Shown: one piece after another, positions 38,416-55,075 of the stretch
How the letters are laid out: every line of letters starts with the position of its first letter
Numbering within the stretch: position 1 is the stretch's first letter
Origin: Shimia marina
Lineage (GTDB): Bacteria; Pseudomonadota; Alphaproteobacteria; Rhodobacterales; Rhodobacteraceae
Assembly: GCF_001458175.1 (NCBI RefSeq)
Contig: NZ_CYPW01000008.1
Span: forward strand, 62,001 to 126,000
DNA: 64,000 nucleotides
Direction: 5' to 3'
Position numbers and translations under genes: made by a program
Notes under the pieces: generated by a model
Database searches by the model: none
What the model was told of the DNA's origin: nothing
Seen by the model: the letters and a program-made list of their open reading frames with translations, nothing else

Positions 38416-38420
38416 CCCAA

Positions 38421-39499: not shown

Positions 39500-39521
39500 T
39501 GGTCAAAAAGGGAACCGCAAA

Positions 39522-39986: not shown

Positions 39987-40618
39987 TGACCCGACGGTCG
40001 ATCCTCAAGTATGCCTTCGCTGGCATCGCGGCGATCGTCCTGACACTTGTTGTTGGGTGGTGGCAGGTCGATGGCCCCGGCGCGCCCGAACAAGCGGGGT
40101 TGCGCCCGGTTGCCCTATCTGAAATGGAATTCCGCCTGACAGATCACGAAGGTAACGAGGTTGGACCCGAAAACCTTATCGGCAGCCCGTCAATGGTCTT
40201 CTTCGGCTTCACCTATTGCCCGGACGTTTGTCCGACGACTCTGTCGGATATTTCCGGCTGGCTTGATGACCTGGGCGAAGAGGCGGAGGGAATGAACGTG
40301 GTGTTCATCACCGTCGATCCAGAGCGGGATACTGTCGAGGCAATGGCCGAGTATGTCGGCTATTTCCATCCGTCGATCCGCGGGTGGACTGGCCCGGAAG
40401 AGGAAATTGCGCGCGCAGCACAGGGCTTCCGCGCACGCTATGGGCGGGTGCCGACCGAAGGTGGCGACTACACCATGAACCACACTGCCAGCGTTTTCCT
40501 TTTCGACGCGAAAGGCCGGTTCAGCACCATGATCGACTATCACGAGCCGAGGGAATTCGCAGTGCCGAAAATCCGGCGTGCGCTCAATAGAGAAACTGGG
40601 GGGCAACATGAGAATTAG
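39986..40618 (+). CDS. SCO1/SenC-type copper/thiol protein, copy 2
   Basis: The 210-aa protein has an N-terminal anchor (about residues 8-28), C78-P-D-V-C82-P and H166 in M-N-H-T-A-S. It is clearly paralogous to the protein at 37816 but diverged outside the motifs, suggesting different roles such as one copper donor and one thiol reductase. It overlaps PCuAC at its start and the M23 peptidase at its end. Confidence 0.88.
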   Translation: MTRRSILKYAFAGIAAIVLTLVVGWWQVDGPGAPEQAGLRPVALSEMEFRLTDHEGNEVGPENLIGSPSMVFFGFTYCPDVCPTTLSDISGWLDDLGEEAEGMNVVFITVDPERDTVEAMAEYVGYFHPSIRGWTGPEEEIARAAQGFRARYGRVPTEGGDYTMNHTASVFLFDAKGRFSTMIDYHEPREFAVPKIRRALNRETGGQHEN

Positions 40619-41981
40619 AACAATCGCGGCAGGTTTCGCATTCGTATCGGTGCTGTCGGTGGGCGGGTTGGCAATATCGGGCATCTGGTCGAAGGATCCG
40701 ATCCCTCCCGGTCTGGCAGCTGCAACCACTTGGTCGCCACCTCAACTCCCGCTTCCCACTTCTATTGAAACGGAAACACCGCAGGTCGCACAAACACGTG
40801 TGGAGCCCGCAATACCACTCCAGTCCATGCCACGTCTGGAGGTTGCGAGCGCCGATACTCTCTTACCGACGATAGAACCTCCGCTCTCCAACTGGTCACG
40901 CGATATCGCAACCGGCGAGACGCTCGACACCGTTCTTGAAGAAGCAGGTCTCTCAGCGACTGACCGTGCCGAGGTCGCTCTGGCCCTCGGCGCGGAATAT
41001 GATCTGAGGCGACTTAGGCCTGGGCATTCGGTCACCGTTGTCTCGACGATGGACGGCAGCCCGCGCAGCGTCGCGCTCTCCGTCGAGGACGGTGTGCGGA
41101 TCGAGGCGATCTTTGGCGAAGAGTTGGCCACGCAGGTCGTGACCCCGGCTCCCGACTTCATAACATCGGCGGGCGAAGCGGTGATCGACAGCTCGCTTTT
41201 TGCCGCGCTGGAAGAAGCCGAGATGCCTGCCCGCTTCGCTGTCGATTTGGCACAGATGCTGGGTGGAATCGTCGACTTCCGTCGTGAGGTGACCGGCGGA
41301 GAAACGCTTCGGCTACTGTGGCGCGAGGCCCGTGTTGGCGAAGACAGAATTGGTCAGCCGGAACTTACCTTTGCATCGCTGGAGATCGGCGGCGCACTTT
41401 ATGAAGTTGTCTGGCCGGTAAGCGGTAGCGATCGGGCAACGATTTACGTCAATGGCACGGTTCTCCGCGTTTTTGCACAGCCTGTCGAAGGGGCGCGATT
41501 AAGCTCGGTATTTGGCCGCCGTACGCACCCGGTCTACGGCAATGTCCGGATGCACACAGGTGTCGATTTCGCGACGGCAAGCGGAACGCCGGTTCAAGCG
41601 ACAGCACCGGGACGGATCAGCTTCATCGGCTGGCGGGGCGGCTATGGTCGCGTGGTCGAAATCGCCCACGGCTCAGACACAATGACACGCTATGCGCATC
41701 TCAGCGCTGTGCCCGAGGGCCTGGCACAAGGCCAACGCGTTGCGGCGGGAGATGTGATCGGTCGCGTCGGCGCGACTGGCACGGCGACGGGCCCGAACCT
41801 GCACTACGAAGTCCTCGTGGATGGACGCCCTACTGACCCCCTCTCTGACGACAGACTTGCCGAAGCGGCTGAGAGCGAAGCGGATGATACAGCCGCGCTT
41901 TTGCGTCTGGTCGAGGCGCGGGCGCTTCTGAATGAAAACCTCGGCAGCGACATTGCCGAAACGACAACCGAAAGGCTCTGA
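40608..41981 (+). CDS. M23-family murein endopeptidase
   Basis: The 457-aa protein has an N-terminal anchor, a P-rich linker, a LysM/OapA-like region (about residues 90-180: G-E-T-L-D-T-V-L-E-E-A-G ... L-R-P-G-H-S-V-T-V-V) and a C-terminal LytM domain. The domain carries H-T-G-V-D-F (Zn ligands His and Asp) and the L-H-Y motif, with R-Y-A-H-L between. M23 enzymes cut peptidoglycan cross-links. I chose ATG 40608, which overlaps the SCO stop. Its presence inside a metal operon suggests coupled cell-wall remodelling. Confidence 0.87.
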   Translation: MRIRTIAAGFAFVSVLSVGGLAISGIWSKDPIPPGLAAATTWSPPQLPLPTSIETETPQVAQTRVEPAIPLQSMPRLEVASADTLLPTIEPPLSNWSRDIATGETLDTVLEEAGLSATDRAEVALALGAEYDLRRLRPGHSVTVVSTMDGSPRSVALSVEDGVRIEAIFGEELATQVVTPAPDFITSAGEAVIDSSLFAALEEAEMPARFAVDLAQMLGGIVDFRREVTGGETLRLLWREARVGEDRIGQPELTFASLEIGGALYEVVWPVSGSDRATIYVNGTVLRVFAQPVEGARLSSVFGRRTHPVYGNVRMHTGVDFATASGTPVQATAPGRISFIGWRGGYGRVVEIAHGSDTMTRYAHLSAVPEGLAQGQRVAAGDVIGRVGATGTATGPNLHYEVLVDGRPTDPLSDDRLAEAAESEADDTAALLRLVEARALLNENLGSDIAETTTERL

Positions 41982-41984
41982 CCC

Positions 41985-42440
41985 ATGAGACGCATGATCC
42001 AAGCTCTTGCCATCACACTCGCCCTGTTACCGGCGGCGCAGGCCCTCGCGGAGGCAACCCCAATAGACGTCCGCAAGACCAATGGATGCGGTTGCTGTCT
42101 GTCCTGGATGAATCATCTTGAGGAGAACGGCTTCGCACCAATAGGCCAGGACATGTTCGGCGGCCTTCTCGTGCGCTTCAAACTCGACAACGGAGTGCCG
42201 CAGCGCATGGTCTCCTGTCACACTGGGCTCGTGGACGGTTACGTGATCGAGGGACATGTGCCTGCAGCCGACATCCGCCGCCTTCTGAACGAACGCCCCG
42301 ATGCGGTCGGTCTCGCAGTCCCCGGAATGCCCTATGGTTCGCCAGGGATGGGGCCGGAAGACGAACGCGATGCCTACGACGTCTTCTTGATCCAGAAAGA
42401 CGGCTCGACCGAAATATTTTCGAGCTACCCAGCAGGGTAA
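41985..42440 (+). CDS. DUF411 periplasmic metal-binding protein, copy 2
   Basis: The 151-aa protein has a signal peptide (about residues 1-22), N-G-C-G-C-C near 34-38, S-C-H-T-G-L, E-G-H-V-P and G-M-P-Y-G-S-P-G-M. It starts 3 nt after the M23 stop, so it ends the metal-regulated operon. It is a paralogue of the protein at 57 with the same gene order in the vicinity (regulator and redox genes), which may reflect duplication or separate acquisition. Confidence 0.87.
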   Translation: MRRMIQALAITLALLPAAQALAEATPIDVRKTNGCGCCLSWMNHLEENGFAPIGQDMFGGLLVRFKLDNGVPQRMVSCHTGLVDGYVIEGHVPAADIRRLLNERPDAVGLAVPGMPYGSPGMGPEDERDAYDVFLIQKDGSTEIFSSYPAG

Positions 42441-42539
42441 CCGAGCCGAATTATGGAAGTCCTTTCCCCAATCTAGCTAACCTATTCAGCCGCTTCAGCG
42501 CAGACCGGCCAATGGTATCCAAAGTAGTTACGTTGCAAC

Positions 42540-43022
42540 ATGTTGACAGTCAACAAAACACAAGTACTCGGCATACTAGCTGTCGTCGGCGCCGTCGCCA
42601 CTGATCAGGTAACAAAAGCCTGGGTTGTCGCGAGCGCCGATACCCTAAAAGACGGGATCGCTGTCTTTCCCGGGCTTAATCTCACGTTCCATCGCAATGA
42701 TGGCGTAACCTTCGGGCTTTTGGGTGGCGCCCCCTGGTGGGGCCTCTTGCTTCTTGCGCTTATCATTTGTGCCTGGCTCCTGATCATGATGCTTCGCACA
42801 GAGAGCAGTATAGAAGCGATTGCGTATGGGGCGATCATAGGTGGCGCGCTCGGCAATGTCGTTGATCGCATCCATTATGGAGCCGTAACAGACTTCCTTG
42901 ATTTTTTCATTGGATCTGCACACTGGCCGACTTTCAACATGGCAGACGTATTCATTGTCGGAGGTGCCGGATTACTGCTGGTGGTACCAGTGATCCAGAG
43001 GCACTTCGAGGGCGATCATTGA
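42540..43022 (+). CDS. lspA: Lipoprotein signal peptidase LspA
   Basis: The 160-aa protein has four membrane helices and the LspA motifs N-D-G-V-T-F-G-L, G-N-V-V-D-R-I and F-N-M-A-D-V, which include the two catalytic aspartates. It removes lipoprotein signal peptides. Plasmid lspA copies are known beside Pb/Zn/Cd resistance genes; here it follows the DUF411 gene by 100 nt without an obvious promoter or good SD. The two lipoprotein-like products encoded near 51 and 53.8 kb are possible clients. Confidence 0.88.
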   Translation: MLTVNKTQVLGILAVVGAVATDQVTKAWVVASADTLKDGIAVFPGLNLTFHRNDGVTFGLLGGAPWWGLLLLALIICAWLLIMMLRTESSIEAIAYGAIIGGALGNVVDRIHYGAVTDFLDFFIGSAHWPTFNMADVFIVGGAGLLLVVPVIQRHFEGDH

Positions 43023-43287
43023 AGACATTGCCCCAAGTTTCATTCGGCGGATTTTTTGCCTGAGCAACTGTTTCCTCGATTTGCCGGACAAGAAAAATTT
43101 CTCGTGCCACAAGTCTGAATAATCTATGTTGGCATTGTAGGTGCCTACTCCGGCGAGCTTGCCGATCGCTCAAGTATTGACTTTTCTAAAGGCACCGCGA
43201 CAAAACCAAGTTTCGAAATCGAACCAGTAACCACCCGCAGATATTGAATCATAAAGAAGGTTGCTCAAAAAAGGACTTGCTCGGCGC

Positions 43288-43623
43288 ATGCACCTACCAA
43301 CGCTTACTTTATGCCGAACCTGCCGTGACGCGGATCCAACCCTGTATGATCAAGTGGTATCAACGCTAAAGGCAGCGAATGTGAAGGCAAAATTGCAGCA
43401 CGTCGATTGCATGTCCGGCTGCATGCGACCACAAACGCTTGCAGTCCGACAGAACGACAAGACTGCTTATCTTTTCGGTGAGATAACTGCTCAAGACCTG
43501 CCGGACATCCTGACATTCATCCGGATGTATCAGGAAAGCCCAGACGGTAACTTCGCGGATGCAAGGCCACTTGGAAAGCTGCGTTTCAAGGCTATTGCTC
43601 GCATTCCCGCAGATGTGCAGTAA
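43288..43623 (+). CDS. DUF1636 metal-binding protein
   Basis: The product (111 aa from ATG 43288, M-H-L-P-T-L) has C-R-T-C-R-D near the start and C-M-S-G-C-M-R-P, followed by Y-L-F-G-E-I and A-R-I-P. This is the DUF1636 pattern, a small Cys-rich, ferredoxin-like protein often found in cobalamin gene clusters. That fits the B12 riboswitch and cobalt-transport genes immediately downstream, though this gene lies upstream of the riboswitch. Confidence 0.75.
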   Translation: MHLPTLTLCRTCRDADPTLYDQVVSTLKAANVKAKLQHVDCMSGCMRPQTLAVRQNDKTAYLFGEITAQDLPDILTFIRMYQESPDGNFADARPLGKLRFKAIARIPADVQ

Positions 43624-43777
43624 ACCACCCGCACCACGATATTAGTAGCTCCTGCGGTGAATTATTGCATTCAGTACAGTGTTGACAGCAGCAGATTTCA
43701 AATCAATTTGGCGCTGCGGAACTTAGGCATGCCGGTTTCGTACTTGACCTGCTACCGCCTAATCGGACAGAAACAGT

Positions 43778-43966
43778 CATTACGGTGCTCAAAGGTGCAA
43801 ATGCATTAGAGCTGAAACGGGAATGAGGACGGTGGACCAAATCGCGGCACCGAAACCTCAACCGCCCCCGCGACTGTGAGCGGCGAGCTACCTTCCATTT
43901 CCACTGGTGCGAGAGTGCTGGGAAGGGGGAAGACGGCATCGACCCGCGAGTCAGGAGACCGGCCGT
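43778..43966 (+). promoter_or_regulatory. Cobalamin (B12) riboswitch
   Basis: The conserved elements occur in order: GAAACGGGAA (43814), the B12-box region CCGCGACTGT (about 43868-43877) inside CCGC...GCGG, GGGAAG, and GAGTCAGGAGACC (43948-43960). It lies about 50 nt before cbtB and would repress cobalt uptake when cobalamin is sufficient. Ends are approximate. Confidence 0.92.
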
Positions 43967-44015
43967 ATATTGAACGTAACTTGCGCCGTCGGGTGTGACG
44001 GCAAGGAGGACTAAA

Positions 44016-44186
44016 ATGACGACAAACGCTATCAAAGCATCCGCTGTAGGATCAACCATTCTGCCCGCAGTGTTCGCCCTTATTCTGGGTTTGGGTGTTG
44101 TTACTGTGACCGGCCATGCTCAAGCTTCTGGCCTGCATGACGCTGCTCACGATGTGCGCCACGCAACTGGCTTTCCCTGCCACTAA
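44016..44186 (+). CDS. cbtB: Cobalt transporter subunit CbtB
   Basis: This 56-aa protein has one membrane helix (about residues 13-33) and the CbtB tail G-L-H-D-A-A-H-D-x-R-H-A-x-G-F-P-C-H, whose histidines probably bind cobalt. AAGGAGG is well placed before the ATG. It is co-transcribed with cbtA 4 nt downstream under the B12 riboswitch, as in known cbtBA operons. Confidence 0.92.
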   Translation: MTTNAIKASAVGSTILPAVFALILGLGVVTVTGHAQASGLHDAAHDVRHATGFPCH

Positions 44187-44190
44187 GACC

Positions 44191-44889
44191 ATGTTCAGTC
44201 GTATTCTGACCAGCGCGTTGTTCGCTGGTGCTGCAGCGGGGCTGATTGCCGCCTTGCTGCAGCTTTATTTCGTGCAGCCTGTACTTCTCCACGCCGAACT
44301 TTATGAGGGTGGCGATTTGGTGCATTTTGGCGCTGATCCTGTGACTGCGCATCCCGAGTTGCCCGGCATGTTCGCCGAGCCGGTGCGCGACGGCCTAAGC
44401 ATCATCTTCACGATGCTGACGTATACTGGCTATGCATTGGCCCTTGTGGCGCTTATGTCGATTGCCGAACAACAGGGTCGTGAGATTAACGGTCGCACCG
44501 GTTTGCTTTGGGGCTTGGCTGGCTTTGTTGCCTTCCACTTTGCGCCTGGCTTGTCGCTGGCGCCTGAAGTGCCAGGCGTAGCCGCAGCAGATGTCGGTGT
44601 GCGCCAAGTATGGTGGACTGCTACTGTTGCCACAGCTGGCGTCGCCATGTGGTTGATCGCCTTTGGAGGCAACTTGGTGAGCTATCTGATCGCCGCTGGA
44701 CTGCTGATAGCGCCTCACGTCGTCGGTGCGCCTGAACCCGACACCTTCGCTGGCCCGGTTCCGACCGAGATCGGCGCGCTATTTGCCGCCCGAGCCTTTG
44801 GCATCGGCATGGCCGCTTGGGTGTTGCTGGGAAGCTTTGCCGGATACTTCTGGCAGGCTGAAGGCAAACGCGCGAACGCCGCCGCCTGA
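44191..44889 (+). CDS. cbtA: Cobalt transporter subunit CbtA
   Basis: This 232-aa membrane protein starts M-F-S-R-I-L-T-S-A-L-F-A-G-A-A-A-G, has about five to six helices, and contains the CbtA features Q-L-Y-F-V-Q-P, G-L-A-G-F-V-A-F-H-F-A-P-G-L-S-L-A-P-E and R-Q-x-W-W. I chose ATG 44191 (the frame is open upstream but overlaps cbtB). It mediates cobalt import for cobalamin synthesis. A hairpin at 44910 probably ends the unit. Confidence 0.92.
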   Translation: MFSRILTSALFAGAAAGLIAALLQLYFVQPVLLHAELYEGGDLVHFGADPVTAHPELPGMFAEPVRDGLSIIFTMLTYTGYALALVALMSIAEQQGREINGRTGLLWGLAGFVAFHFAPGLSLAPEVPGVAAADVGVRQVWWTATVATAGVAMWLIAFGGNLVSYLIAAGLLIAPHVVGAPEPDTFAGPVPTEIGALFAARAFGIGMAAWVLLGSFAGYFWQAEGKRANAAA

Positions 44890-44909
44890 TTCCTTTCCTC
44901 TATTGCTTT

Positions 44910-44931
44910 CCCGCCGGTCACCGCCGGCGGG
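44910..44931 (+). terminator. Hairpin after cbtA
   Basis: CCCGCCGG and CCGGCGGG form a perfect 8-bp stem with a 6-nt loop, followed by a T-containing tail (AGCTTTCATTTATT). Confidence 0.6.
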
Positions 44932-44957
44932 AGCTTTCATTTATTGAGGAGGACAAA

Positions 44958-45461
44958 ATGTCCCGTTCACTCGCTCTCTTCGCCATCGGGCTGATTTTTG
45001 GCGGCGGCGTCGGCTTTGTGATCGCGGCCGGCAGCGGCAGCACCTTTGACAGCCACGACCATGCTGACCCGTCTCAACATGGTAGCAATGCGGAGATGGC
45101 AGCCCATGACCACTCTGCTGTCACTAACTTACCGGCCGACAGCAATGCCCCCAGCGTGGCGATCAAGATGATTAAAGATCCGATGGCAGGTTGGAACTTG
45201 CACGTGACACCGCAAAACTTCCGATTTTCTCCTGAGAATGCCTCTACTGAGGAAATACTTGGTGAAGGTCACGCGCATGTCTATATCAACGGCGAAAAGC
45301 TGGGGCGCCTTTATGCCAACTGGATACACCTCCCATCACTGCCGGATGGCGACGTTGAGATAAAAGTTTCCCTCAATGGCAACAGCCACAGCCCGCTAAT
45401 GGTTGGGGGCTTGCCCGTCGAGGCCAAACTAATCGTTCAAGCAGACGATGACGGCTCCTGA
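44958..45461 (+). CDS. Membrane-anchored His-rich periplasmic protein
   Basis: The 167-aa protein has an N-terminal anchor or signal (residues 4-24), a His/Asp-rich linker (H-D-H-A-D ... A-H-D-H-S) and a beta domain containing G-E-G-H-A-H-V-Y-I-N-G-E-K-L-G-R-L-Y-A-N-W-I-H-L. The motif suggests a periplasmic copper- or other metal-binding protein, but I cannot name the family. A GAGGAGG SD is present. It lies between the cobalt genes and the MntR operon. Confidence 0.7.
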   Translation: MSRSLALFAIGLIFGGGVGFVIAAGSGSTFDSHDHADPSQHGSNAEMAAHDHSAVTNLPADSNAPSVAIKMIKDPMAGWNLHVTPQNFRFSPENASTEEILGEGHAHVYINGEKLGRLYANWIHLPSLPDGDVEIKVSLNGNSHSPLMVGGLPVEAKLIVQADDDGS

Positions 45462-45492
45462 GCAAAACTCAGATCTTGACTGAACTTCGGTC

Positions 45493-45513
45493 GCAGGGGC
45501 CTTGCGCCCCTGC
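45493..45513. terminator. Hairpin between convergent genes
   Basis: GCAGGGG and CCCCTGC form a 7-bp stem over 7 nt, lying between the + strand gene ending at 45461 and the - strand mntR ending at 45600; it may serve both directions. Confidence 0.5.
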
Positions 45514-45599
45514 ATTGCCATGGTTTGCATGTCAGGATCGAATGCAATCCTCCCCTGAGCGCATCATTATGGCAAATGGCAATAGCATGAACCAACTCG

Positions 45600-46049
45600 C
45601 TATCGGCTCATTTTACTCTGTGAAAAATCCTTGAATACGCGAAGCGTCTCTTCGCTTACATGATGCTCGATACCTTCAGCATCGTGCTCGGCCACGTCTT
45701 TGGAAATACCCAGGGCGATAAGGAACTCCACAACAATTCGGTGCCGCTTTCGACAAGCCTCGGCCAATCGCCGCCCAGCATCCGTTAGGCGTATTGATCG
45801 GTAAGGTTCCTGCACAATGAAGCCCTCGCGTTTAAGCCGGGTCAGGTTCTTGGACACAGTGGGCTGGGTCACGCCGAGCCGCTCGGCAATCTCCACGGGC
45901 CTCGCTGAACCGTTCTGGTGAATCAGCTCCGCGATCAGCTCGACATAATCCTCCACAACTTCGCTTTGTCGGGCGGCGCGGGCTGCCTCGAAACCGCTCA
46001 CCTGGTCGTCAGGTTTACGTCCGAATAGTTGTGGTTTCTGATCGGTCAT
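45600..46049 (-). CDS. mntR: MntR-type manganese-responsive repressor (DtxR family)
   Basis: I chose the ATG at 46049 (149 aa, M-T-D-Q-K-P), preceded by GAGAGCAGA. The protein closely follows E. coli-type MntR: V-E-D-Y-V-E-L-I-A-E-L-I, an HTH (R-P-V-E-I-A-E-R-L-G-V-T-Q-P-T-V-S-K), R-K-R-H-R-I-V-V-E-F-L and A-E-H-D-A-E-G-I-E-H-H-V-S-E-E-T-L, which holds metal ligands. It is divergent from the di-heme cytochrome/ABC operon, and a perfect palindrome sits at that promoter. Confidence 0.92.
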   Translation of the reverse strand: MTDQKPQLFGRKPDDQVSGFEAARAARQSEVVEDYVELIAELIHQNGSARPVEIAERLGVTQPTVSKNLTRLKREGFIVQEPYRSIRLTDAGRRLAEACRKRHRIVVEFLIALGISKDVAEHDAEGIEHHVSEETLRVFKDFSQSKMSR

Positions 46050-46125
46050 TCTGCTCTCGGTGTCTATTGCTGGTGCGGAACCCTGCTTGCCGCGCCTTAT
46101 TGTGTATGCACCAGCGACGCGGGCC

Positions 46126-46169
46126 TTGACAATGACATAGACTTTTCTACAAAACTTAGCCAAGGCTAA
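46126..46169 (+). promoter_or_regulatory. Promoter plus MntR-type operator of the cytochrome/ABC operon
   Basis: TTGACA (46126) and TACAAA (46148) with a 16-bp spacer form a good sigma-70 promoter. Immediately downstream TTAGCC-AA-GGCTAA (46156-46169) is a perfect inverted repeat of the DtxR/MntR type, placed to block transcription, 18 bp before the first ATG. Confidence 0.75.
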
Positions 46170-46186
46170 TAATTATAGACTGAACC

Positions 46187-48040
46187 ATGAAACACCTGAT
46201 TGCATCTGCCTTGATTGGCCTGCTTCCGCTTAGTGTGGGGGCCACTGCCATTGAAGAAGCCCCTTGGGCACCTCGGGCCGCAGCCTACCGGCTGAGCCTA
46301 TTCATGGCGAACTTGACACCCGTTCCCTGGGAGAAGATTGAAAACAATTGGACTGCTCCGGCACCCGGCAGCGCAGTTGCGGTGGAGGCACTGTCACGGG
46401 TATCGGATAGCGACGCCCAGAACATTCGTGCAGCGCTGGCTGCGGAAGACCGACAGGCCCTGTTTGCTGCCATTACAACGGCATTGGCCAAAGGTATTCT
46501 GCAGCACCTAGAGGCAGCCGAGGCGACACTTGGCCAGCCTGAAGCCGCATTTGAGGTTGCGCAGTCTGCGGCCTTGTACCGCGCGTTCGAGGACGGCATC
46601 CTGGCGGCGGACAAGCAGGCCGCACACGACCTAGGTCGCGCCTGGCTGGTTCTGAATTCTTCTCTGGGTAGCACCGGTATTTTGAACAATGGCGCTCAAG
46701 ACCCGAATGTGGCGCGATTTGCTGAGGCGCAAAAAGTTATCGTGGAGTACATTGAGACAAACTATCTGCCCTCCGTTTTTGTCGAACGTGGCAAGCTGAC
46801 CCCGGCACCGGAGAGCGCAGTGCGCTCCGGTACGCCGGTAGTGTTGCCCGCCACACTCCCACCGGGCTCCAATATTGCTGATCAGCGCGAGCTACCCCGG
46901 CTGGTGCTCCAGTTTGAAGAGGCTGGCGAGGATGAGGCCAACCTGCCGCTTGTGGCCTATGGCGACATGCTGTTCGACAGCCCTGAAATCTTTGGTTCCC
47001 CAGCACGTGACCTGGGCATTGCCTGTTCAACTTGCCACAACCGGTCCGATGTGAACCGGGATTTCTTTATCCCCGGCCTCTCTAGCCATGCTGGCGGGAT
47101 GGATGTGGACAGCTCCTTCTTCAATCCGATGTTCAATGACCGGGAAGACGATCACCTGGATACGCCGTCAATGCGAGGCATCCGCTTTACAGCGCCTTAC
47201 GGGCGTGATGGGCGCGAGCCGAGCCTGCGCAGTTTTGTACGCAATGTGATCGTGACCGAGTTTGCCGGAGCGGAGCCAACGCCGTTCCAACTCGATGCGA
47301 TGGTCGCCTACTTGCGCGCCTTTGACTTTCTGCCCAACCCACAGATAGACGAGGCCGGGCGGCTGACTGACAAGGCCTCTGAGGCTGCGAAACGCGGTGA
47401 GGTACTGTTCAATACCGAATTTGCCGGGCTTGGCGACAGGTCCTGCGCCTCCTGCCACACCCCGGACCGGTTTTTCCGAGATGGGCAGACCTATGACATT
47501 GGCTCGGCCGAGCCGCCGTTCCCGGGCGGCACCGCAACCCCATTCGAAACGCCCACATTGCGCAATGTCAACTTCACCGCGCCCTACATGCATGACGGAT
47601 CGCTGGCGACCCTAGCGGGGGTTGTAGACTGGTTCAACGATACCAAGGATCTGGGCTTGGATGCGGAACAGCGCGCCGATTTAACTGCCTATCTGCGCGC
47701 GGTAGGAGATGGTGAGGAGCCCTACCAGCGCTTTGAAGGCCGAGACAGCGTGTTCCGCCTGTCGTGGGAAGAGCTTACCACTTTTGCTTCGACGCTGGAC
47801 ACACTGATCCCGATGCGGGATGCGGAGAACATCGCCGTATTGATTGATACTGTTGCACCGGATCTGGCGGCAGATGCGAGCGTTATGATCAATCAAAACG
47901 CTAAGCCAGAAATCTACCGATTTGCCGCAATTCTTCAGGCAGTTGGCGATGCCAGCGCCGCTGGCGACTGGGCTGAGGCGAGCCTCCAGTGGGACGCTTT
48001 CAAAACCATGCAAGCCGAGATTGATGAGAGGATGTTCTGA
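46187..48040 (+). CDS. Di-heme cytochrome c peroxidase-like protein with N-terminal extension
   Basis: The 617-aa periplasmic protein has a signal peptide (1-19), a helical N-terminal region of about 200 residues with no recognised domain, and a CcpA/MauG-type di-heme part with C280-S-T-C-H284 and C420-A-S-C-H424, plus T-P-S-M-R-G-I and T-P-T-L-R-N-V-N motifs. The family oxidises substrates with peroxide or modifies peptides (MauG, MbnH). It is the first gene of a four-gene coupled operon with a PhnDCE-like importer under a putative MntR operator, suggesting metal or metallophore processing. Confidence 0.85.
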   Translation: MKHLIASALIGLLPLSVGATAIEEAPWAPRAAAYRLSLFMANLTPVPWEKIENNWTAPAPGSAVAVEALSRVSDSDAQNIRAALAAEDRQALFAAITTALAKGILQHLEAAEATLGQPEAAFEVAQSAALYRAFEDGILAADKQAAHDLGRAWLVLNSSLGSTGILNNGAQDPNVARFAEAQKVIVEYIETNYLPSVFVERGKLTPAPESAVRSGTPVVLPATLPPGSNIADQRELPRLVLQFEEAGEDEANLPLVAYGDMLFDSPEIFGSPARDLGIACSTCHNRSDVNRDFFIPGLSSHAGGMDVDSSFFNPMFNDREDDHLDTPSMRGIRFTAPYGRDGREPSLRSFVRNVIVTEFAGAEPTPFQLDAMVAYLRAFDFLPNPQIDEAGRLTDKASEAAKRGEVLFNTEFAGLGDRSCASCHTPDRFFRDGQTYDIGSAEPPFPGGTATPFETPTLRNVNFTAPYMHDGSLATLAGVVDWFNDTKDLGLDAEQRADLTAYLRAVGDGEEPYQRFEGRDSVFRLSWEELTTFASTLDTLIPMRDAENIAVLIDTVAPDLAADASVMINQNAKPEIYRFAAILQAVGDASAAGDWAEASLQWDAFKTMQAEIDERMF

Positions 48041-48900
48041 TGCTGTCGCGCCGTACCTTTTTGACCACTGTCGCTGCCGCCCTAACAGTGCCAGCAACTG
48101 CCTCTGCGGAAGAGGCACTGAAACTCGCCTTCATTCCGCAAGAAAACCCAGAGAAGCTGTTGGGGGATATCGAGGCGATCACTGCCTGGCTGTCCCAGCA
48201 GTTGGAGGTTCCAGTCACCGGCTTTGTTACCTTTGATCATGCTGCGGCAGTTGAGGCATTGCGCAATGGTGATGCCGATATCTCCTTCATGGGTGCCTTG
48301 CCCTTTGTGCTGGCAGAAGACCAGATCGGGGCGGTGCCACTTCTGTCCGAGGTTTACCGCGGCCAGCCGAGCTATTCGGGCCGGGTGTTTGTGCGCAAGG
48401 ACAGCGGCATCGAGACGCTGGCCGACCTGCAGGGCCGTGACATTGCCTTTGCCGATCCGGTGTCGGAGTCCGGCTATCTCTATCCGCTCGACCTGTTTGT
48501 GCGCGAAGGACTCGTTGCGGATGCAGGCGATGCGGACCGGTTCTTTGGCCAGAAGTTCTTTGCCGGTGGTTATCAGCAGGCAATGCAGGCTATGGCCAAC
48601 GGGTTAGTGGATGCTGCGGGTGCCAGCCAGTATGCCGATCTTTATCTGACGCCTGAGCAGCAGGCCGAGGTCAGGGTGCTGGGCGAAAGCGCGCAGATCC
48701 CCAGCCATGCCATCATTGCCCGGCCTGGTCTAGATGCGGCCTTGCAGGCCCGCTTCGTGGATGCCATGCTGCGCCTGAACCAGGCTGAGAACCAGTATTT
48801 GCTGGCCTATCTCTACGGCCCAGACGGCTATGTGGCAGCAGATCCCAAGGTCTATGACGGGGTCAGGCAGATGGCACGCCGTTACGGCTATCTAAAATGA
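48040..48900 (+). CDS. PhnD-like periplasmic substrate-binding protein
   Basis: The 286-aa protein has a Tat-like signal (R-R-T-F-L-T-T, cleavage after S-A-E) and the phosphonate-type binding-protein fold: F-I-P-Q-E-N-P-E-K-L, F-D-H-A-A-A-V-E-A-L-R-N-G-D-A-D-I-S-F-M-G, L-Q-G-R-D-I-A-F-A-D-P-V-S-E-S-G-Y-L-Y-P. The start shares a base with the cytochrome stop. The family binds phosphate, phosphite or phosphonate, but the MntR context suggests a different ligand such as a metal complex. Specificity cannot be read from sequence. Confidence 0.85.
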   Translation: MLSRRTFLTTVAAALTVPATASAEEALKLAFIPQENPEKLLGDIEAITAWLSQQLEVPVTGFVTFDHAAAVEALRNGDADISFMGALPFVLAEDQIGAVPLLSEVYRGQPSYSGRVFVRKDSGIETLADLQGRDIAFADPVSESGYLYPLDLFVREGLVADAGDADRFFGQKFFAGGYQQAMQAMANGLVDAAGASQYADLYLTPEQQAEVRVLGESAQIPSHAIIARPGLDAALQARFVDAMLRLNQAENQYLLAYLYGPDGYVAADPKVYDGVRQMARRYGYLK

Positions 48901-49667
48901 CCCAAGCGCTTGCCCTCCATGCTGTGTCGCATTGCTTTGACGACGCTGAGGCCCTGCAGGATGTGTCGCTGCAGGTGGCACCGGGGGAATGTGTGGCCTT
49001 GCTGGGGCCTTCGGGCGCCGGCAAGTCGACCCTGCTGGCCTTGCTGGATGGGCGGGTCCGGGGATGGCGCGGTCGGGCTGAGGTACTGGGCAACCGGCTT
49101 CCAAATGATCGGGCACCAGAACGAAAAACCCGGCTAGAGACTGGCTTCATCTTTCAGGAGTTCGCCCTGGTTGACCGGCAGAGCGTTTACCAGAATGCGA
49201 TGAACGGGCGGCTGGGGCGAATGCGCCTCTGGCCGTCGCTTTGGGGGCGATACGGTGCGCAGGATCACCTCAAGACGACCATCGCGCTGGAGGACACCGG
49301 CCTAACGGAGTTGGCACAGCGCCGTGCAGATCAGCTTTCAGGTGGTCAGCGCCAGCGAGTGGCCATCGCCCGCTGCCTGGCGCAGGAGCCTGAGTTGATA
49401 CTGGCGGATGAACCGGTCAGCAACCTCGATCCAGCCCACGCCGAACGCATTCTGGAACTGATCACCAACACAGCGCGAAATCGCGGCATCGCTGTAGTCT
49501 TCAGTTCGCATCAGCCAGAGCTTTCGCGGCGCTTTGCCGACCGTATCGTTGGATTGCGCGCGGGCGCGGTGCTGTTTGACAAGCCCTCCGCGATGGTCGG
49601 CAACGATGACATCAGCGATTTGTACCATGGAACAGTACCTGGTGACGGATTGCGGGTGGTGAGCTGA
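48897..49667 (+). CDS. PhnC-like ABC transporter ATPase
   Basis: The 256-aa protein shows Walker A G-P-S-G-A-G-K-S-T, the signature L-S-G-G-Q-R-Q-R, Walker B L-I-L-A-D-E-P-V-S-N-L-D and the H-loop S-S-H-Q-P. The spacing is that of PhnC importer ATPases. It overlaps its neighbours on both sides (4 nt and 1 nt) in the same operon. Confidence 0.92.
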   Translation: MTQALALHAVSHCFDDAEALQDVSLQVAPGECVALLGPSGAGKSTLLALLDGRVRGWRGRAEVLGNRLPNDRAPERKTRLETGFIFQEFALVDRQSVYQNAMNGRLGRMRLWPSLWGRYGAQDHLKTTIALEDTGLTELAQRRADQLSGGQRQRVAIARCLAQEPELILADEPVSNLDPAHAERILELITNTARNRGIAVVFSSHQPELSRRFADRIVGLRAGAVLFDKPSAMVGNDDISDLYHGTVPGDGLRVVS

Positions 49668-50410
49668 TGAGCCGGATCTTGGTTTGGATGGTACTCGGGC
49701 TTGCTGTGCTGTGGGCTGCAGGAAACGCTGACATCGGCTTGGAAAAACTGCCCGGAGCGGGTCCGAGGCTAGCAGAATTTCTAGGCCGGATGATACCACC
49801 GGACCTTTCTGTCTGGCCGGAAGTCCTTACAGGCCTAACCGAGACACTGAGAATCGCCATTCTTGGGACGCTGTTTGCGGTCGTCCTGTCGGCGGGGCTG
49901 GCTGTACTTGCGTCTGAGACCCTTGTACCCGCAGCCATCTGGCGCCCGGTACGTGCGCTGCTGGCAGTGATCCGGTCGATTCCGCTGATCTTGGTGGCGA
50001 TGCTGATGGTGGGGGCAGTCGGGCTGGGCCCACTGCCCGGTATTCTTGCAATCACTTTTCATGCCACCGGCATGCTGGCCAAATTCTATGCTGAAGCAAT
50101 CGACAATGTCGGTGCCGCACCACTTGCTGCATTGGAAAGCGCAGGTGCCAGCCGAGCGCAATTATTGCGGTGGGCGATCTGGCCACAGATGGCACCAGTT
50201 GTGCTCCGCGACACTGTCTTCCGCTTTGAACTGAACCTCCGCGAAAGCTTGATCTTAGGTATCGTTGGCGCCGGGGGCATCGGTCTGTACGTTCAGACTT
50301 ACGTGCGTTCGTTCCAATACGACAAAGCTGCAACTGTCACGCTTGCCATCATCGCTCTTGTGCTGCTGTTCGAAGGTCTAAATTCGGTTTTACAAAAGCG
50401 GTTTTCGTGA
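49667..50410 (+). CDS. PhnE-like ABC transporter permease
   Basis: The 247-aa membrane protein has six predicted helices and the permease coupling motif E-S-A-G-A-S-R-A-Q-L-L-R-W-A-I-W-P-Q (EAA loop), with R-S-I-P-L-I-L-V-A-M-L typical of PhnE permeases. It completes the importer. A single permease gene implies a homodimer. Confidence 0.92.
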   Translation: MSRILVWMVLGLAVLWAAGNADIGLEKLPGAGPRLAEFLGRMIPPDLSVWPEVLTGLTETLRIAILGTLFAVVLSAGLAVLASETLVPAAIWRPVRALLAVIRSIPLILVAMLMVGAVGLGPLPGILAITFHATGMLAKFYAEAIDNVGAAPLAALESAGASRAQLLRWAIWPQMAPVVLRDTVFRFELNLRESLILGIVGAGGIGLYVQTYVRSFQYDKAATVTLAIIALVLLFEGLNSVLQKRFS

Positions 50411-50650
50411 CGATTTTGATCAAGGAAGGTCGGAAAATTCAGATTTCGCAGCGTTTTCAGTTTCGTAGTGCCATTCGAAGAGCTTTCCCTACCATTCATC
50501 GTTCGCCAGACCCACTGAACTGGGGTTCGCCTATCTTGCTCATTACCTGTGTTCTTCGGTTTGATCAGTCTACCTTGAAACTGTCAGTCTGCCGCACCGA
50601 CAACAGTTTTTTTGAGAAGCACAGCCGCCACCGTTTCCAGACAAATTCGG

Positions 50651-51160
50651 TTATGAGTAGATATCAATAGGTGTCCCGTTCTTCACCATTGCATAGATAT
50701 CTTCTATCTCCCGATCCGAAACGGCAATGCATCCGGCCGTCCAGTCGCGCTTGTTTGTCGGGTCAATGCCAGGGCGCGGCCCCCCATGGATGAAAATATC
50801 TCCACCAGGGGAACGGCCCTGAGCCTTTGCGTATGCGATATCCGCCTCGTTCGGGTACGAGATCCCGATGGAAAGATGAAACAGGCTTTCGGGATTTCGC
50901 CTGTCAATCACGTATGATCCTTCTGGCGTGCGCCCGTCCCCTTCGAATTGCTTGTGACCCTCAGGCGCAAAGCCAAGGCCCATTGGGATAGTGCGCAAAA
51001 CACCCTCTGGTCCATCAAGGACAATCATGCGCTGCCCCTTGTAGACCCGCACCCGGGTCACCTCCGGCCCCCTGTAAGTGCGGAATTTGTTTGCACATCC
51101 AGAAAGAATTGTCGCCAGAGCTCCCAGGAGGATTGTGCGACGTGTAACTCGAAAATTCAC
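50651..51160 (-). CDS. L,D-transpeptidase (YkuD), lipoprotein-like
   Basis: The 169-aa protein has a lipobox (L-S-G-C22) and a YkuD domain with I-H-G-G ... and the catalytic T-A-G-C-I-A-V-S. YkuD enzymes form 3-3 cross-links in peptidoglycan or attach lipoproteins to it. It lies 61 nt downstream of the P-type ATPase on the same strand, so it is probably part of that metal-induced transcript. The small size and short N-terminal region are at the low end for the family. Confidence 0.87.
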   Translation of the reverse strand: MNFRVTRRTILLGALATILSGCANKFRTYRGPEVTRVRVYKGQRMIVLDGPEGVLRTIPMGLGFAPEGHKQFEGDGRTPEGSYVIDRRNPESLFHLSIGISYPNEADIAYAKAQGRSPGGDIFIHGGPRPGIDPTNKRDWTAGCIAVSDREIEDIYAMVKNGTPIDIYS

Positions 51161-51221
51161 TGCTCAATGCCTCTTTCATGAGGTTTTTCAAACTTGACAC
51201 TAGCGTGCTGTGCCAGCCCGT

Positions 51222-53591
51222 TCAATGGCCGTGCGCCAAAGCACCTTCGGCCAGTCTGTCGCCGACGCGGTCACCGCCTTTGGGCGGAGTCTCCGCGTGG
51301 TGTCCGTTTAACAGCCTGAGCGCATTTGCGACAACCAGCAGTGACACGCCAACATCTGCGGCAATGGCCCCCCACATCGATGCCATCCCAAACGCTGTCG
51401 CCACCACGAAAACGGCCTTGGTTGCCAGCGAGGTTGCGATGTTTTGACGGATGATCGACATCGCACGGCGGGAATGGCCTATGAGCCAGGGCACCCTGCC
51501 AATGTCATCAGTCATCAAGGCAATGTCCGCCGTCTCGATGGCCGCGTCGGAACCAACCGCGCCCATGGCGATAGCATAGTGGGCCCGCGCCATGGCGGGG
51601 GCATCGTTTACGCCATCGCCAATCATGGCCACCATATCGTGCGCTTCGACCAGGTCTTCGATGGCCGTCACCTTGTCCTCGGGCAGAAGCTCCGCGCGCA
51701 CCTCGTCGATGCCGACCTCTGTCGCGACCGCGCGCGCGGTGCGTTCATTGTCGCCCGTCAGCATGACGATGGTTTTCACGCCCTGCGCATGCAGACGAGC
51801 CACGATTCCCTTGGCGTCGGGGCGGATGCGGTCGCGCAGTTCCAGAATACCCATCACCCCATTTGCATCACCAACAGCCACCAACGTACTACCGGCAACT
51901 TCGATACGGTGCCGAAGGTCTGTCGGAATGGCACTTCCAAGCCCTTTTTCCTCGGCGAACCGGTCAGAGCCGAGCCAGACCGCCCGATCCTGTACCCTGC
52001 CTTCAAGCCCACGCCCCGGTACGGTCCGCGTATCGTCCGCCGCGGATACATCAAGGCCGTCGACTTCTGCACGTACAAGGATAGCGCGCGCTAACGGGTG
52101 GGAGGATCGCGCTTCAAGCGCCGCCGCTACGCCCATCAGATCCTGCGTCGACGCATTCCCTAGCGGATACATTGCAGCAACTTCAGGCTCGCCGATGGTG
52201 ATCGTACCGGTCTTGTCCATGGCCAAGGCTGAAGTGCGTCCCGGAGCTTCGACATAAGCACCGCCCTTGATCAGCACCCCGGCGCGGGCCGAGGCTGTGA
52301 GCGCGGCGACGATGGACACGGGCGTCGAAATGACCAGCGCACAAGGGCAGGCGATCACCAGAAGGACGAGGGCGTTGTAGAACCAGTCATCCCAGGCTCC
52401 ACCAAATACGAGCGGTGGCAGCATCGCGACGGCAATGGCGAGCGCCATCACGATGGGCGTATAGACGCGCGCAAATTTCGCCACCCATTGCTCCACGGGC
52501 GCGCGGCGGGTGTGGGCGTCGCCTACCATGCGGATGATCTTGGCGAGCACCGTGTCGGAGGCCGCCCTGGTCGCGCGTACCGTCAGCGTGCCCTCGCCAT
52601 TGATCGTGCCCGCATAGACCTCGTCACCCGGCTCCTTCGGCACCAATGCGCTTTCGCCAGTGATCGGGGCTTGATCAACGGCCCCGGCGCCTTCGATCAC
52701 TTGCCCGTCCAATGGAATGCGGTCCCCGCCACGCACCACGAAATGTGCATCGATGGCGACGGCTGACGCCGGAACATCTGCTTCAGAACCATCTTCGTAG
52801 ACAACCCTTGCAGTAGGTGGCGCTAGGTCGAGCAAAGCCGAGACAGCGTTCCGCGCCCGCCCGACACTCCAGCTTTCAAGGTACAGCGAGAGAGAGAAGA
52901 AGAACGCGACCGTTGCCGCCTCGAAAAACTCGCCAAGGCCGATAGCCCCGGCCACAGCGACCACCATCAAGAGGTTCATGTCGGGCGATACGCGCCGCGC
53001 GGATGACCACGCCTTCGGGGCGACAAGCCAAACGCCAGCCAGGATCGCGATAGCAAAAAGCCCCGCTTCGACCAAAGGCATCACTGCTTCTCCATGGCCG
53101 GAAAAGAGACCGATCGCACCGCCCATCCCGGTTTCTGCGATGTGATACAGAAATCCTGCCGCCCAAAAGCCTCCGCTCAGCATTGTGAACAGGCGCTGAC
53201 GGGCAAGATGCGCAGCTTGATCCTCCGAAGCGTTCTCGGCATCCCAGGGTTTTGCGCTCATACCCGTGGTCGCAACCAGTTGAGTGATCTCTCCATCCGA
53301 CACTGCGGCAGCGCTGTGGAGTATGATCATGCGTCCGTTGATGACATCGAATGCCAGGTGCTCCGCCCCGCCGACTTTCGGTCCAACGACCTTGTTGAGG
53401 ATCGCCACTTCTTCTGCGCAATCAAGACCGCTGACCTGAAAACTCCGGCCCGCTCCATCTTGTGGCACGGGACCAAACTCTTCGTGTGAATGGCTTCCTC
53501 CACAGCAGGCATGTTCACTTGCACATGTTTCTGACTTGGCTCTATCAGTTGGGTGTACTTCAGATACCACAGTTTCAGTTTTGGCGGCCAT
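51222..53591 (-). CDS. P1B-type heavy-metal ATPase (ZntA/CadA-like Zn/Cd/Pb exporter)
   Basis: The 789-aa protein has a Cys/His-rich N-terminus (C-A-S-E-H-A-C-C-G-G-S-H-S-H), a degenerate ferredoxin-like domain (S-G-L-D-C-A-E-E), eight predicted helices with C-P-C-A-L-V-I-S, the phosphorylation motif D-K-T-G-T-I-T, T-G-D-N and G-D-G-V-N-D-A-P-A. C-P-C with an N-terminal Cys-rich tail fits the Zn/Cd/Pb group. GGAG precedes the ATG. It is driven by a MerR-type promoter at 53622. Confidence 0.93.
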   Translation of the reverse strand: MAAKTETVVSEVHPTDRAKSETCASEHACCGGSHSHEEFGPVPQDGAGRSFQVSGLDCAEEVAILNKVVGPKVGGAEHLAFDVINGRMIILHSAAAVSDGEITQLVATTGMSAKPWDAENASEDQAAHLARQRLFTMLSGGFWAAGFLYHIAETGMGGAIGLFSGHGEAVMPLVEAGLFAIAILAGVWLVAPKAWSSARRVSPDMNLLMVVAVAGAIGLGEFFEAATVAFFFSLSLYLESWSVGRARNAVSALLDLAPPTARVVYEDGSEADVPASAVAIDAHFVVRGGDRIPLDGQVIEGAGAVDQAPITGESALVPKEPGDEVYAGTINGEGTLTVRATRAASDTVLAKIIRMVGDAHTRRAPVEQWVAKFARVYTPIVMALAIAVAMLPPLVFGGAWDDWFYNALVLLVIACPCALVISTPVSIVAALTASARAGVLIKGGAYVEAPGRTSALAMDKTGTITIGEPEVAAMYPLGNASTQDLMGVAAALEARSSHPLARAILVRAEVDGLDVSAADDTRTVPGRGLEGRVQDRAVWLGSDRFAEEKGLGSAIPTDLRHRIEVAGSTLVAVGDANGVMGILELRDRIRPDAKGIVARLHAQGVKTIVMLTGDNERTARAVATEVGIDEVRAELLPEDKVTAIEDLVEAHDMVAMIGDGVNDAPAMARAHYAIAMGAVGSDAAIETADIALMTDDIGRVPWLIGHSRRAMSIIRQNIATSLATKAVFVVATAFGMASMWGAIAADVGVSLLVVANALRLLNGHHAETPPKGGDRVGDRLAEGALAHGH

Positions 53592-53621
53592 TCGGCATCT
53601 CCAGAATCATTGCTTGGCTGG

Positions 53622-53652
53622 ACCATAACTCCTACAGTCGCTAGAGGTTCAA
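53622..53652 (-). promoter_or_regulatory. MerR-type promoter of the P-type ATPase
   Basis: On the - strand TTGAAC is followed after 19 bp by TATGGT; the spacer CTCTAGCGACTGTAGGAGT holds the CCTCTAG-CGA-CTGTAGG dyad. It closely resembles the site at 37155. Confidence 0.82.
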
Positions 53653-53754
53653 GAGGTATTTTGTTTCGTATATAGTTTTCGGCTGCCAAGGGGCGCGCGA
53701 GTATAAAACCAATCGGCGGACACGCAATCAACGAAGAAAGGCGACAAGGAATTT

Positions 53755-54027
53755 ATGAAGACTCAGCAATTTGCCGGACCGATCGGACTACCGCTACTTG
53801 GGGTACTGCTGCTTGGCGCATGCGCGACGACAGATCAGAACGGATCCCAAAAAATCGGAAACGTGCCAGAGGCTATCGTGGAACTGGCTGATCCAAGTCA
53901 AAACCTTGCAACAGCCCGGCTCCGCGAAGAAGACGGATGCTACTGGTATGAACACAACGGACCCGTAGAAAAGACCTTGCTTCCCCTCAGAACCGCTGGT
54001 GGCAACCCGATTTGTGTTGCTCGGTAA
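53755..54027 (+). CDS. Small putative lipoprotein (90 aa)
   Basis: The product has a lipobox (L-L-G-A-C23-A-T-T) after a hydrophobic segment, then a 65-aa mature part with an E-E-D-G-C-Y-W-Y-E-H-N-G motif and a second Cys near the end (N-P-I-C-V-A-R), which might form a disulfide. The SD AGGCGACAAGGAA is reasonable. It lies between two MerR-type-controlled - strand units. No family is recognised. Confidence 0.7.
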   Translation: MKTQQFAGPIGLPLLGVLLLGACATTDQNGSQKIGNVPEAIVELADPSQNLATARLREEDGCYWYEHNGPVEKTLLPLRTAGGNPICVAR

Positions 54028-54100
54028 ACGTAACGATCTTCCTGACATCTCCGGCCCACGTTGAGGGCCGGAGCGAAGATCAACGCGTCACAATCCTGCA

Positions 54101-54763
54101 CTAGCTGTCCGAAACAACACTCTGTTCGGCAGAATACAGGTATACGGTCGACCCTATGGCGACGTTTGAATAGAGATCATTGATATGTGCCATGACCATC
54201 CGGACGCAGCCAGAACTCGCTCGACCGCCAATCGACCAAGGTTTAGGTGTCCCGTGGATGCGAAGGTAAGTGTCTCGGTTGCCAACGTAGAGATAAAGAG
54301 CACGTGACCCGAGTGCATTCTTCGGCCCCGGCTCCATCCCATCCGCAAATTCTGCGTTTTCCGGATTTCGTTCGATCATTGACGCTGTTGGGGTCCAGTG
54401 TGGCCATTCGACCTTTCGCCGAATGGTGTAGGTTCCTGGTTCGTAGAGATTTCCACGCGCGATCGCCACTCCATACCGCATCGCTGTACCACCTTCTTCA
54501 ATGTGATAGAGATAGCGGGCGACTGCATCGACATGGATGTCACCTGGCACAAGGCCATCTTTCGCAGCAACACGTTGCGGCAAGAAACGGGGATGCAGCC
54601 CCCACGGATTGGATGTCGCCGGGTCATAGTTGCTGGGCGTTACCTGAGAATCCCACGACGCTTTTTGGCCGGTCGTTGGCCAGCTACTGGCCAAAGCCGG
54701 TCCCGCGATCGGTAACGAAAACATCGCAGTGGACGTGGAAATGAAATGGCGCCGGGTCAGCAT
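54101..54763 (-). CDS. L,D-transpeptidase (YkuD), periplasmic
   Basis: The 220-aa protein has a Tat-type signal (R-R-H-F-I-S-T, cleavage after A-L-A) and the YkuD active site H-G-T-P-K-P-W-S-I-G-G-R-A-S-S-G-C-V-R-M, with the catalytic His and Cys intact. It makes 3-3 or lipoprotein cross-links in peptidoglycan. It is longer than and only distantly related to the enzyme at 50651. Its own MerR-type promoter at 54825 places it in the metal regulon. Confidence 0.9.
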   Translation of the reverse strand: MLTRRHFISTSTAMFSLPIAGPALASSWPTTGQKASWDSQVTPSNYDPATSNPWGLHPRFLPQRVAAKDGLVPGDIHVDAVARYLYHIEEGGTAMRYGVAIARGNLYEPGTYTIRRKVEWPHWTPTASMIERNPENAEFADGMEPGPKNALGSRALYLYVGNRDTYLRIHGTPKPWSIGGRASSGCVRMVMAHINDLYSNVAIGSTVYLYSAEQSVVSDS

Positions 54764-54824
54764 AGGTCCTACTCCAAAGAAATTGTTTGTGCACCTCCAG
54801 CCGCGGCTTGGATGCCTCGAGTGC

Positions 54825-54855
54825 CTTGTAGAACCTCAAGCCACTATAGGTTCAA
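54825..54855 (-). promoter_or_regulatory. MerR-type promoter of the second L,D-transpeptidase
   Basis: On the - strand TTGAAC is followed after 19 bp by TACAAG; the spacer CTATAGTGGCTTGAGGTTC holds an imperfect dyad around TGG. It is the weakest of the four dyads, but the spacing and -35 are identical. Confidence 0.72.
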
Positions 54856-55075
54856 GGCCTCATTTATGAGCGATGATCAAGTCCTCGTGAAGGGATGGCT
54901 CTCCTTCTGCCGCTGGCATCTGACAGATCACAGGCCAATTTTACAAGCATTTTGGATCTTACCGGTGTCGATACTCTGCCACAAACCCTTGGCGAAACTC
55001 GGTTTGATTTTGTCACTTTTTCATCCTCGGCTATGAGAGCCTACATTGGAACGCGATGCAGCATTGTTCACTTTG

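Follow-up and report, generated by a model that had tools for sequence, protein, structure and literature searches.

What does a bacterium take up when a transporter of the phosphonate type is placed under a manganese regulator and joined to a haem protein? The question is raised by a locus at 45600-50410 of a 64,000-nucleotide stretch of Shimia marina DNA (RefSeq assembly GCF_001458175.1, contig NZ_CYPW01000008.1, positions 62,001 to 126,000 of the forward strand; the whole stretch is called the window here). An mntR gene diverges there from four genes that encode an exported cytochrome with two CxxCH motifs, a PhnD/PtxB-fold periplasmic binding protein, an ATPase and a permease. Our reading, held with moderate confidence from regulator, operator, pocket and neighbourhood, is that the operon encodes a metal-capture ATP-binding cassette (ABC) importer with a redox partner, induced by manganese starvation and spread by plasmids within metal islands.

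A divergent MntR regulator and a coupled four-gene operon

Regulator and operon were found where an earlier reading of the letters and open reading frames (ORFs) alone (the sequence-only reading) had placed them, in the same order and with adjacent operon genes overlapping by 1, 4 and 1 nt. The regulator, on the minus strand (45600-46049), passes the MntR equivalog cut-off (PRK11050, 205.2 bits, cut-off 153); its closest solved relative is Escherichia coli MntR (2h09, E = 3e-38) and its best matches are MntR proteins, not DtxR or IdeR. On the plus strand follow the 617-residue cytochrome (46187-48040), which matches CCP_MauG (PF03150, 46.2 bits, cut-off 25.6), and the binding protein (48040-48900), which exceeds the cut-off of PF12974 (Phosphonate-bd) and scores 163 bits with the PhnD equivalog profile (cut-off 261.1). 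The PhnC-like ATPase (48897-49667) stays below its equivalog cut-off (TIGR02315, 238.6 of 266.1 bits) and the PhnE-like permease (49667-50410) passes its own (TIGR01097, 239.7 bits, cut-off 216.7). The matches to MntR, CCP_MauG, Phosphonate-bd and PhnE are thus all over cut-off. The regulator ORF (45600-46163) keeps its identity and strand but not its start, which is probably ATG at 46049 (~149 residues) instead of TTG at 46163, because an ORF from the TTG would span the operator and the mntR gene of Leisingera caerulea is annotated at 447 bp. A Pfam scan found no Nramp or ZnuA domain in the operon, the three transport genes being described by PF12974, PF00005 and PF00528.

A conserved predicted operator and its probable link to manganese

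The palindrome TTAGCCAAGGCTAA (TTAGCC-AA-GGCTAA, 46156-46169, no strand), a predicted MntR operator, lies directly downstream of a promoter-like TTGACA (46126-46131) and TACAAA (46148-46153; span 46126-46153, plus strand, read from sequence), as had been claimed. Its conservation was followed in 80 relatives of the locus, the best 80 of the 124 that turned up when named genome records, including many metagenome-assembled genomes (MAGs), were scanned. A box with at most two mismatches is present in 79 of the 80 cytochrome loci; once similar upstream regions are removed, 38 of the 39 left (the non-redundant set) have it and none of the controls (39 in-gene stretches and 39 shuffles), which rules out a chance palindrome. 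Absence of the palindrome upstream of orthologues had been named beforehand as grounds for giving up the idea, and a search for the same gene set with its box in other genomes had been proposed; both gene set and box proved to be widely kept.

The position of the box is nearly constant as well, the distance from the start of TTGAC to the start of the box being 30 bp in 73 and 29 bp in 6 of the 80 relatives. Between the -35 and -10 elements, 19 bp upstream of the box, there is a weaker copy (46137-46150 in the window, where it is degenerate; no strand), with a mean mismatch of 4.2 at the non-redundant loci against 7.2-11.3 at other non-zero offsets. Such a placement would match an operator that blocks RNA polymerase. 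In the 4.0-Mb genome TTAGCCNNGGCTAA has a single exact match, the box of this operon, and two sites with one mismatch, one adjoining a second mntR and the other within an ORF whose product looks like a pentapeptide-repeat protein. Regulation therefore looks local, since the only sites in this genome with no more than one mismatch are those at the operon, at its eroded copy (described below) and in that ORF. MntR is divergent in 78 of the 80 loci, and one locus without an adjacent MntR (L042) still has the box upstream of the cytochrome.

An Asp at the position of Asp8 in Bacillus subtilis MntR marks the manganese type of regulator, Met being found there in DtxR. Residues D72, E75, H141, E163, E166 and H167 of the regulator (P0001) align with D8, E11, H77, E99, E102 and H103 of B. 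subtilis MntR, which we take to be its six Mn(II) ligands. Family membership and these aligned ligand residues make manganese-responsive control of the operon very likely. As an independent comparison, one mntH locus was hand-picked from each of 20 genomes of the same bacterial family, out of the 33 (of 198) that have an Nramp domain over cut-off. MntR is divergent beside mntH in 10 of them, and all 10 have, 178-261 bp ahead of the Nramp domain, a TAGCC-nn-GGCTA-like box that shows 0-2 mismatches, the seven best at one mismatch or fewer (shuffle p ≤ 0.024). Among the 10 mntH loci without MntR, one has a box at one mismatch or fewer (L172, p = 0.018) and three at two or fewer, in each of these three exactly 46 bp ahead of the start of the domain. 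MntR with such a box thus often marks a manganese importer in this family, and the same arrangement appears to control the cytochrome-PhnDCE set. The manganese-type control suggested by the sequence-only reading is upheld by the fixed promoter position of the box, by MntR at nearly all loci and by the like box between MntR and mntH in relatives.

The pocket of the binding protein appears remodelled

Foldseek ranks PtxB first for the binding protein, followed by ArrX, HtxB, AioX and PhnD, with transferrins from rank 44. In Trichodesmium PtxB phosphite is contacted by Y55, Y100, S130, T131, S132 and H160, with a capping Y208 held by D22 (Bisson et al., PMC5700983). By sequence alignment with the residues given there, the positions opposite Y55, Y100, S130, T131, S132, H160, Y208 and D22 are H67, Y112, S142, E143, S144, Y178, H223 and Q34. 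None of the eight varies among the 35 orthologues aligned (the window plus 34 of the 79 loci carrying the gene), and no histidine other than H67 and H223 is invariant there. The PtxB-type oxyanion pocket (Tyr, Ser-Thr-Ser, His and a capping Tyr) is replaced by His, Ser-Glu-Ser, Tyr and His in every one of them.

The substitutions are particular to this group. Thirty-nine PhnD-type or similar loci were compared; 34 matched the model and three of these were set aside, two being the protein of the window and one a known orthologue. Of the remaining 31, L134 proved to be an orthologue, with the same pocket residues and a cytochrome of its own alongside, and the other 30 form the comparison set, in which none has H67, E143, Y178 or H223 (6 gapped at 67, 1 at 223). 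A carboxylate midway along the oxyanion loop, together with two histidines, would suit a metal cation (possibly alongside an oxyanion that is still bound) better than phosphite or phosphonate. This predicted shift from oxyanion-type to metal-type residues argues for the metal-related import role that had been proposed.

The cytochrome departs from known di-haem enzymes

The haem motifs C280/C283/H284 and C420/C423/H424 are invariant in all 37 aligned cytochromes (the window plus 36 of the 80 loci). On the C-terminal haem of this superfamily the axial ligand is Met in cytochrome c peroxidase (CCP) and Tyr294 in MauG. In our protein F483 lies opposite Y312 of the di-haem enzyme 6e1c and the Met of the bacterial peroxidases 3o5c and 1iqc; it also lies opposite position 294 of MauG, presumably the axial Tyr294, when the matched ranges are read without gaps. 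Position 483 is Phe in 37 of 37, so that the C-terminal haem should lack the usual sixth ligand, and conservation does not extend to the His that follows the first haem motif (His301 in 8 of 37). Neither the MauG equivalog cut-off (46.3 of 443.85 bits) nor that of MbnH (TIGR04039, 72.6 of 362.85 bits) is reached, and with Phe at the axial position of these relatives the analogy drawn by the sequence-only reading is weak.

Its judgement that the N-terminal region is novel holds. The structure prediction it had proposed gives a confident, all-helical AlphaFold2 domain (residues ~26-222) that has no Pfam match at E up to 5 and no significant Foldseek match; an NDH subunit and PsbQ, helical proteins among its best hits, were discarded as fold relatives (E 0.6 or worse, insignificant). 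The domain occurs in 2 of 398 genomes of the phylum, in S. marina itself (operon and remnant) and in G445, where it adjoins an orthologous binding protein. The haem part of the model is poor (predicted local distance difference test, pLDDT, <50 over 227-383 and 423-475), and no haem geometry is claimed for that reason.

Conservation within mobile metal islands

Eleven of the 198 family genomes, S. marina included, have the cytochrome at E ≤ 1e-30, and the other 10 all show a divergent MntR and the order cytochrome-binding protein-ATPase-permease. In the 80 relatives the binding protein is present at 79 loci (once partial), and in L042, L061, L074 and L094, which lack ATPase and/or permease, the gap falls at a contig end. 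By its genes the window looks like a repABC-type plasmid, carrying a relaxase, a coupling protein and VirB-like genes; in a plasmid collection of 72,556 records the cytochrome is found in 44, of which 19 are conjugative, 18 mobilizable and 7 neither.

Neighbourhoods were compared in the window and the 80 relatives (n = 81; ORFs of at least 90 residues, 8-kb flanks where present). The gene set sits in islands rich in other metal and periplasmic genes: L,D-transpeptidase (48 of 81), M23 peptidase (48), P-type ATPase (45), LspA (33), SCO (32), Lnt (32), ZIP (30), DUF411 (29), CtaG (25) and PCuAC (20). Besides the operon's own transport genes, no phosphorus gene was found in the 28 of 37 recurrent families (at least 6 of 81) that were scanned with Pfam, the nine unscanned ones looking like antisense or fragment ORFs. 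A search of PHROGs returned no matches.

A stretch of 13.7-17.9 kb of the metal island (window 38187-56037) is 99.98-99.99% identical in six records from six genera (Pelagimonas, Litorivita, Tritonibacter, Halocynthiibacter, Phaeobacter, with P. italicus, and Actibacterium), an identity that indicates very recent spread; over 54.7 kb including the backbone, the window is 97.8% identical to G086:C14. The S. marina genome also holds a second, eroded copy of the operon (L002 983-1820; G000:C8:149112 region) with mntR, promoter, box and a truncated cytochrome start, namely ~52 matched residues of an N-terminal domain from a different cytochrome copy, followed by a P-type ATPase gene.

Two features of the surroundings are recorded for completeness. 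A gene for a CbtA-type putative cobalt transporter and, after it, one for a 167-residue protein without Pfam or NCBIfam match (window 44116-45461) recur in 9 of 81 neighbourhoods each. Two L,D-transpeptidase (YkuD) genes (50651-51160 and 54101-54763; families in 48 and 42 of 81) flank a P-type ATPase gene.

Discussion

The metal-capture reading implies the following sequence of events. With sufficient Mn(II), Mn-MntR would sit on the 14-bp box after the -10 element, helped by the weaker box 19 bp upstream, and block the promoter; when manganese runs short, repression would lift and the four coupled genes would be expressed. The PhnD-fold protein, with a pocket of two His, one Glu and two Tyr, would capture manganese, whether free, chelated or paired with an oxyanion, for import by the PhnC/PhnE-like ATPase and permease. 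The two-haem cytochrome would work in the periplasm ahead of capture, most likely shifting the oxidation state of the metal or of its ligand. The parts differ in strength. Metal import by the PhnDCE-like set is likely and manganese itself is the probable cargo; that the cytochrome changes the redox state of manganese or its ligand is a guess. Of the earlier proposal, that the unit imports manganese or a metal chelate with the cytochrome acting on metal or ligand, the manganese-type control and the metal-related import role have stood; the MauG/MbnH analogy is weak. A bolder version, which we hold to be rather unlikely in its particulars, is a redox-coupled Mn(III) importer, in which the binding protein would hold Mn(III) in an FbpA-like His/Glu/Tyr/Tyr site that arose from a phosphite pocket and retains an oxyanion at the S142-E143-S144 helix start, and the cytochrome would oxidize Mn(II) or handle Mn(III)-ligand complexes of seawater.

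Several observations weigh against manganese capture. Three of the MntR-mntH boxes (L173, L183 and L187) have two mismatches and are singly no better than shuffles (p ~0.2). The pocket assignment relies on sequence alignment and the published structure of a relative at ~22-25% identity, and the PtxB-like Tyr at 223 occurs in only 3 of the 30 other PhnD-type proteins, mostly Gly or Ser being found there, which means that the alignment near this residue is loose. Nramp is absent from 11 of 11 operon genomes tested; given the background of only 33 of 198 family genomes with Nramp over cut-off this is weak, and the operon as a replacement for Nramp was dropped as evidence. The same 11 genomes all encode ZnuA-family proteins (1-3 each), and two loci of the S. 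marina genome read as Sit-like and Znu-like (the names are our reading). The operon would thus be an extra importer at most, and it is speculation that such a system is useful where toxic metals or manganese speciation defeat SitABCD. The surrounding islands resemble those for resistance to copper or other metals. Finally, an Anderseniella MAG has a solo cytochrome of 65% identity (L044, 8001-9854) without MntR, box or PhnD-like gene; the gene ahead of it seems to encode a TAXI-type binding protein.

Four other explanations have to be set against manganese capture. An ordinary importer of phosphonate, phosphite or another phosphorus compound, incidentally under MntR, would account for the permease above the PhnE cut-off, for the PhnD and PhnC profile matches below theirs, and for a fold nearest to PtxB in which S142, S144 and Y112 of the oxyanion site are retained. 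We nevertheless find it improbable, since Glu143 takes the place of the phosphite-contacting Thr, and His67, Tyr178 and His223 those of Tyr, His and Tyr, in 35 of 35 aligned proteins, the scanned neighbour families hold no phosphorus gene, and the regulator is MntR. The same pocket raises the question of iron, carried by an FbpA-type ferric-ion importer under an iron-reading sensor of the DtxR/MntR family. The ligands of FbpA include His and Glu; our pocket (His, Glu, two Tyr and an anion-binding helix start) resembles that of ferric-binding proteins, and transferrins follow the PhnD group in the fold search. Ferric-binding proteins rely on two tyrosines, with phosphate as the synergistic anion (PMC2860717). 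Iron is still an unlikely cargo in our estimate, because the regulator has D72 at the B. subtilis Asp8 position and best matches MntR, not DtxR or IdeR, and a like box serves mntH in relatives.

The remaining two explanations turn on the cytochrome. Manganese limitation weakens manganese-based oxidative defence, and a member of the di-haem peroxidase family encoded by the first gene of the operon might then clear H2O2, the ABC genes importing an unrelated nutrient. We give this little credence: all 37 aligned cytochromes have Phe in place of the axial Met/Tyr, only 8 of the 37 have the His (His301) that follows the first haem motif, and in 79 of 80 loci the cytochrome is coupled to the binding protein with the remodelled pocket. 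That constant pairing with one small periplasmic partner, together with the matches to MauG/MbnH-type profiles and the invariant Trp50, Tyr112 and Tyr178 of the binding protein (35 aligned), would also fit a cytochrome that covalently modifies its partner in the manner of MauG or MbnH and so creates the metal site, a proposal compatible with manganese capture. Its chances appear slim with bit scores far below the cut-offs for MauG (46.3/443.85) and MbnH (72.6/362.85) and Phe at the axial-ligand position throughout the alignment.

If manganese capture is correct, the operon represents a further type of ABC manganese importer, in which a phosphorus-binding fold has been repurposed for metal, and it provides a defined partner for a di-haem cytochrome. 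The gene set travels on plasmids, many of them conjugative or mobilizable, mostly in marine Alphaproteobacteria. In the plasmid records inspected, its genes are labelled phosphate/phosphite/phosphonate transporter and cytochrome c peroxidase; studies that tally genes of the marine phosphorus cycle could therefore count them wrongly. No account of the gene set was found in the literature searched, including the accessible parts of PMC9426580, PMC4511512, PMC13386836, PMC9025767 and PMC5613091, which does not exclude an earlier mention (e.g. Rodionov 2006, Green 2013).

Comparison with known systems

The reduced-phosphorus importers PtxB, PhnD and HtxB (and also AioX and ArrX) share with our system the fold, the set of binding protein, ATPase and permease, and the position of the pocket; the His/Glu/Tyr/His pocket, MntR control and the cytochrome partner set it apart. 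With di-haem cytochrome c peroxidase, MauG and MbnH the cytochrome has in common the CCP_MauG domain, two CxxCH motifs and an APYxHDG stretch, but it differs in the Phe at the axial Met/Tyr position, in extra helical N- and C-terminal regions and in its fixed pairing with an importer. SitABCD and ZnuABC, the cluster A-I manganese/zinc importers, are likewise metal ABC importers expected under metal limitation, whereas their binding protein belongs to PF01297 and that of the operon to PF12974. The iron importer EfeUOB also unites a haem enzyme, a periplasmic binding partner and an importer in one operon, although the DyP-type EfeB and the Ftr1-type EfeU are of other families. The TBDR-pTFP module of Stenotrophomonas, an MntR-controlled candidate for accessory manganese acquisition (PMC13217887), resembles the operon in its regulation but, in the part of that report available to us, consists of a TonB receptor and a thioredoxin-fold protein and has no PhnD or cytochrome. 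Closest in regulatory layout is the MntR-mntH unit of the same bacterial family, which has the divergent MntR and a TAGCC-nn-GGCTA-type box between regulator and importer; there the importer is Nramp, here a PhnDCE-type ABC set with a cytochrome.

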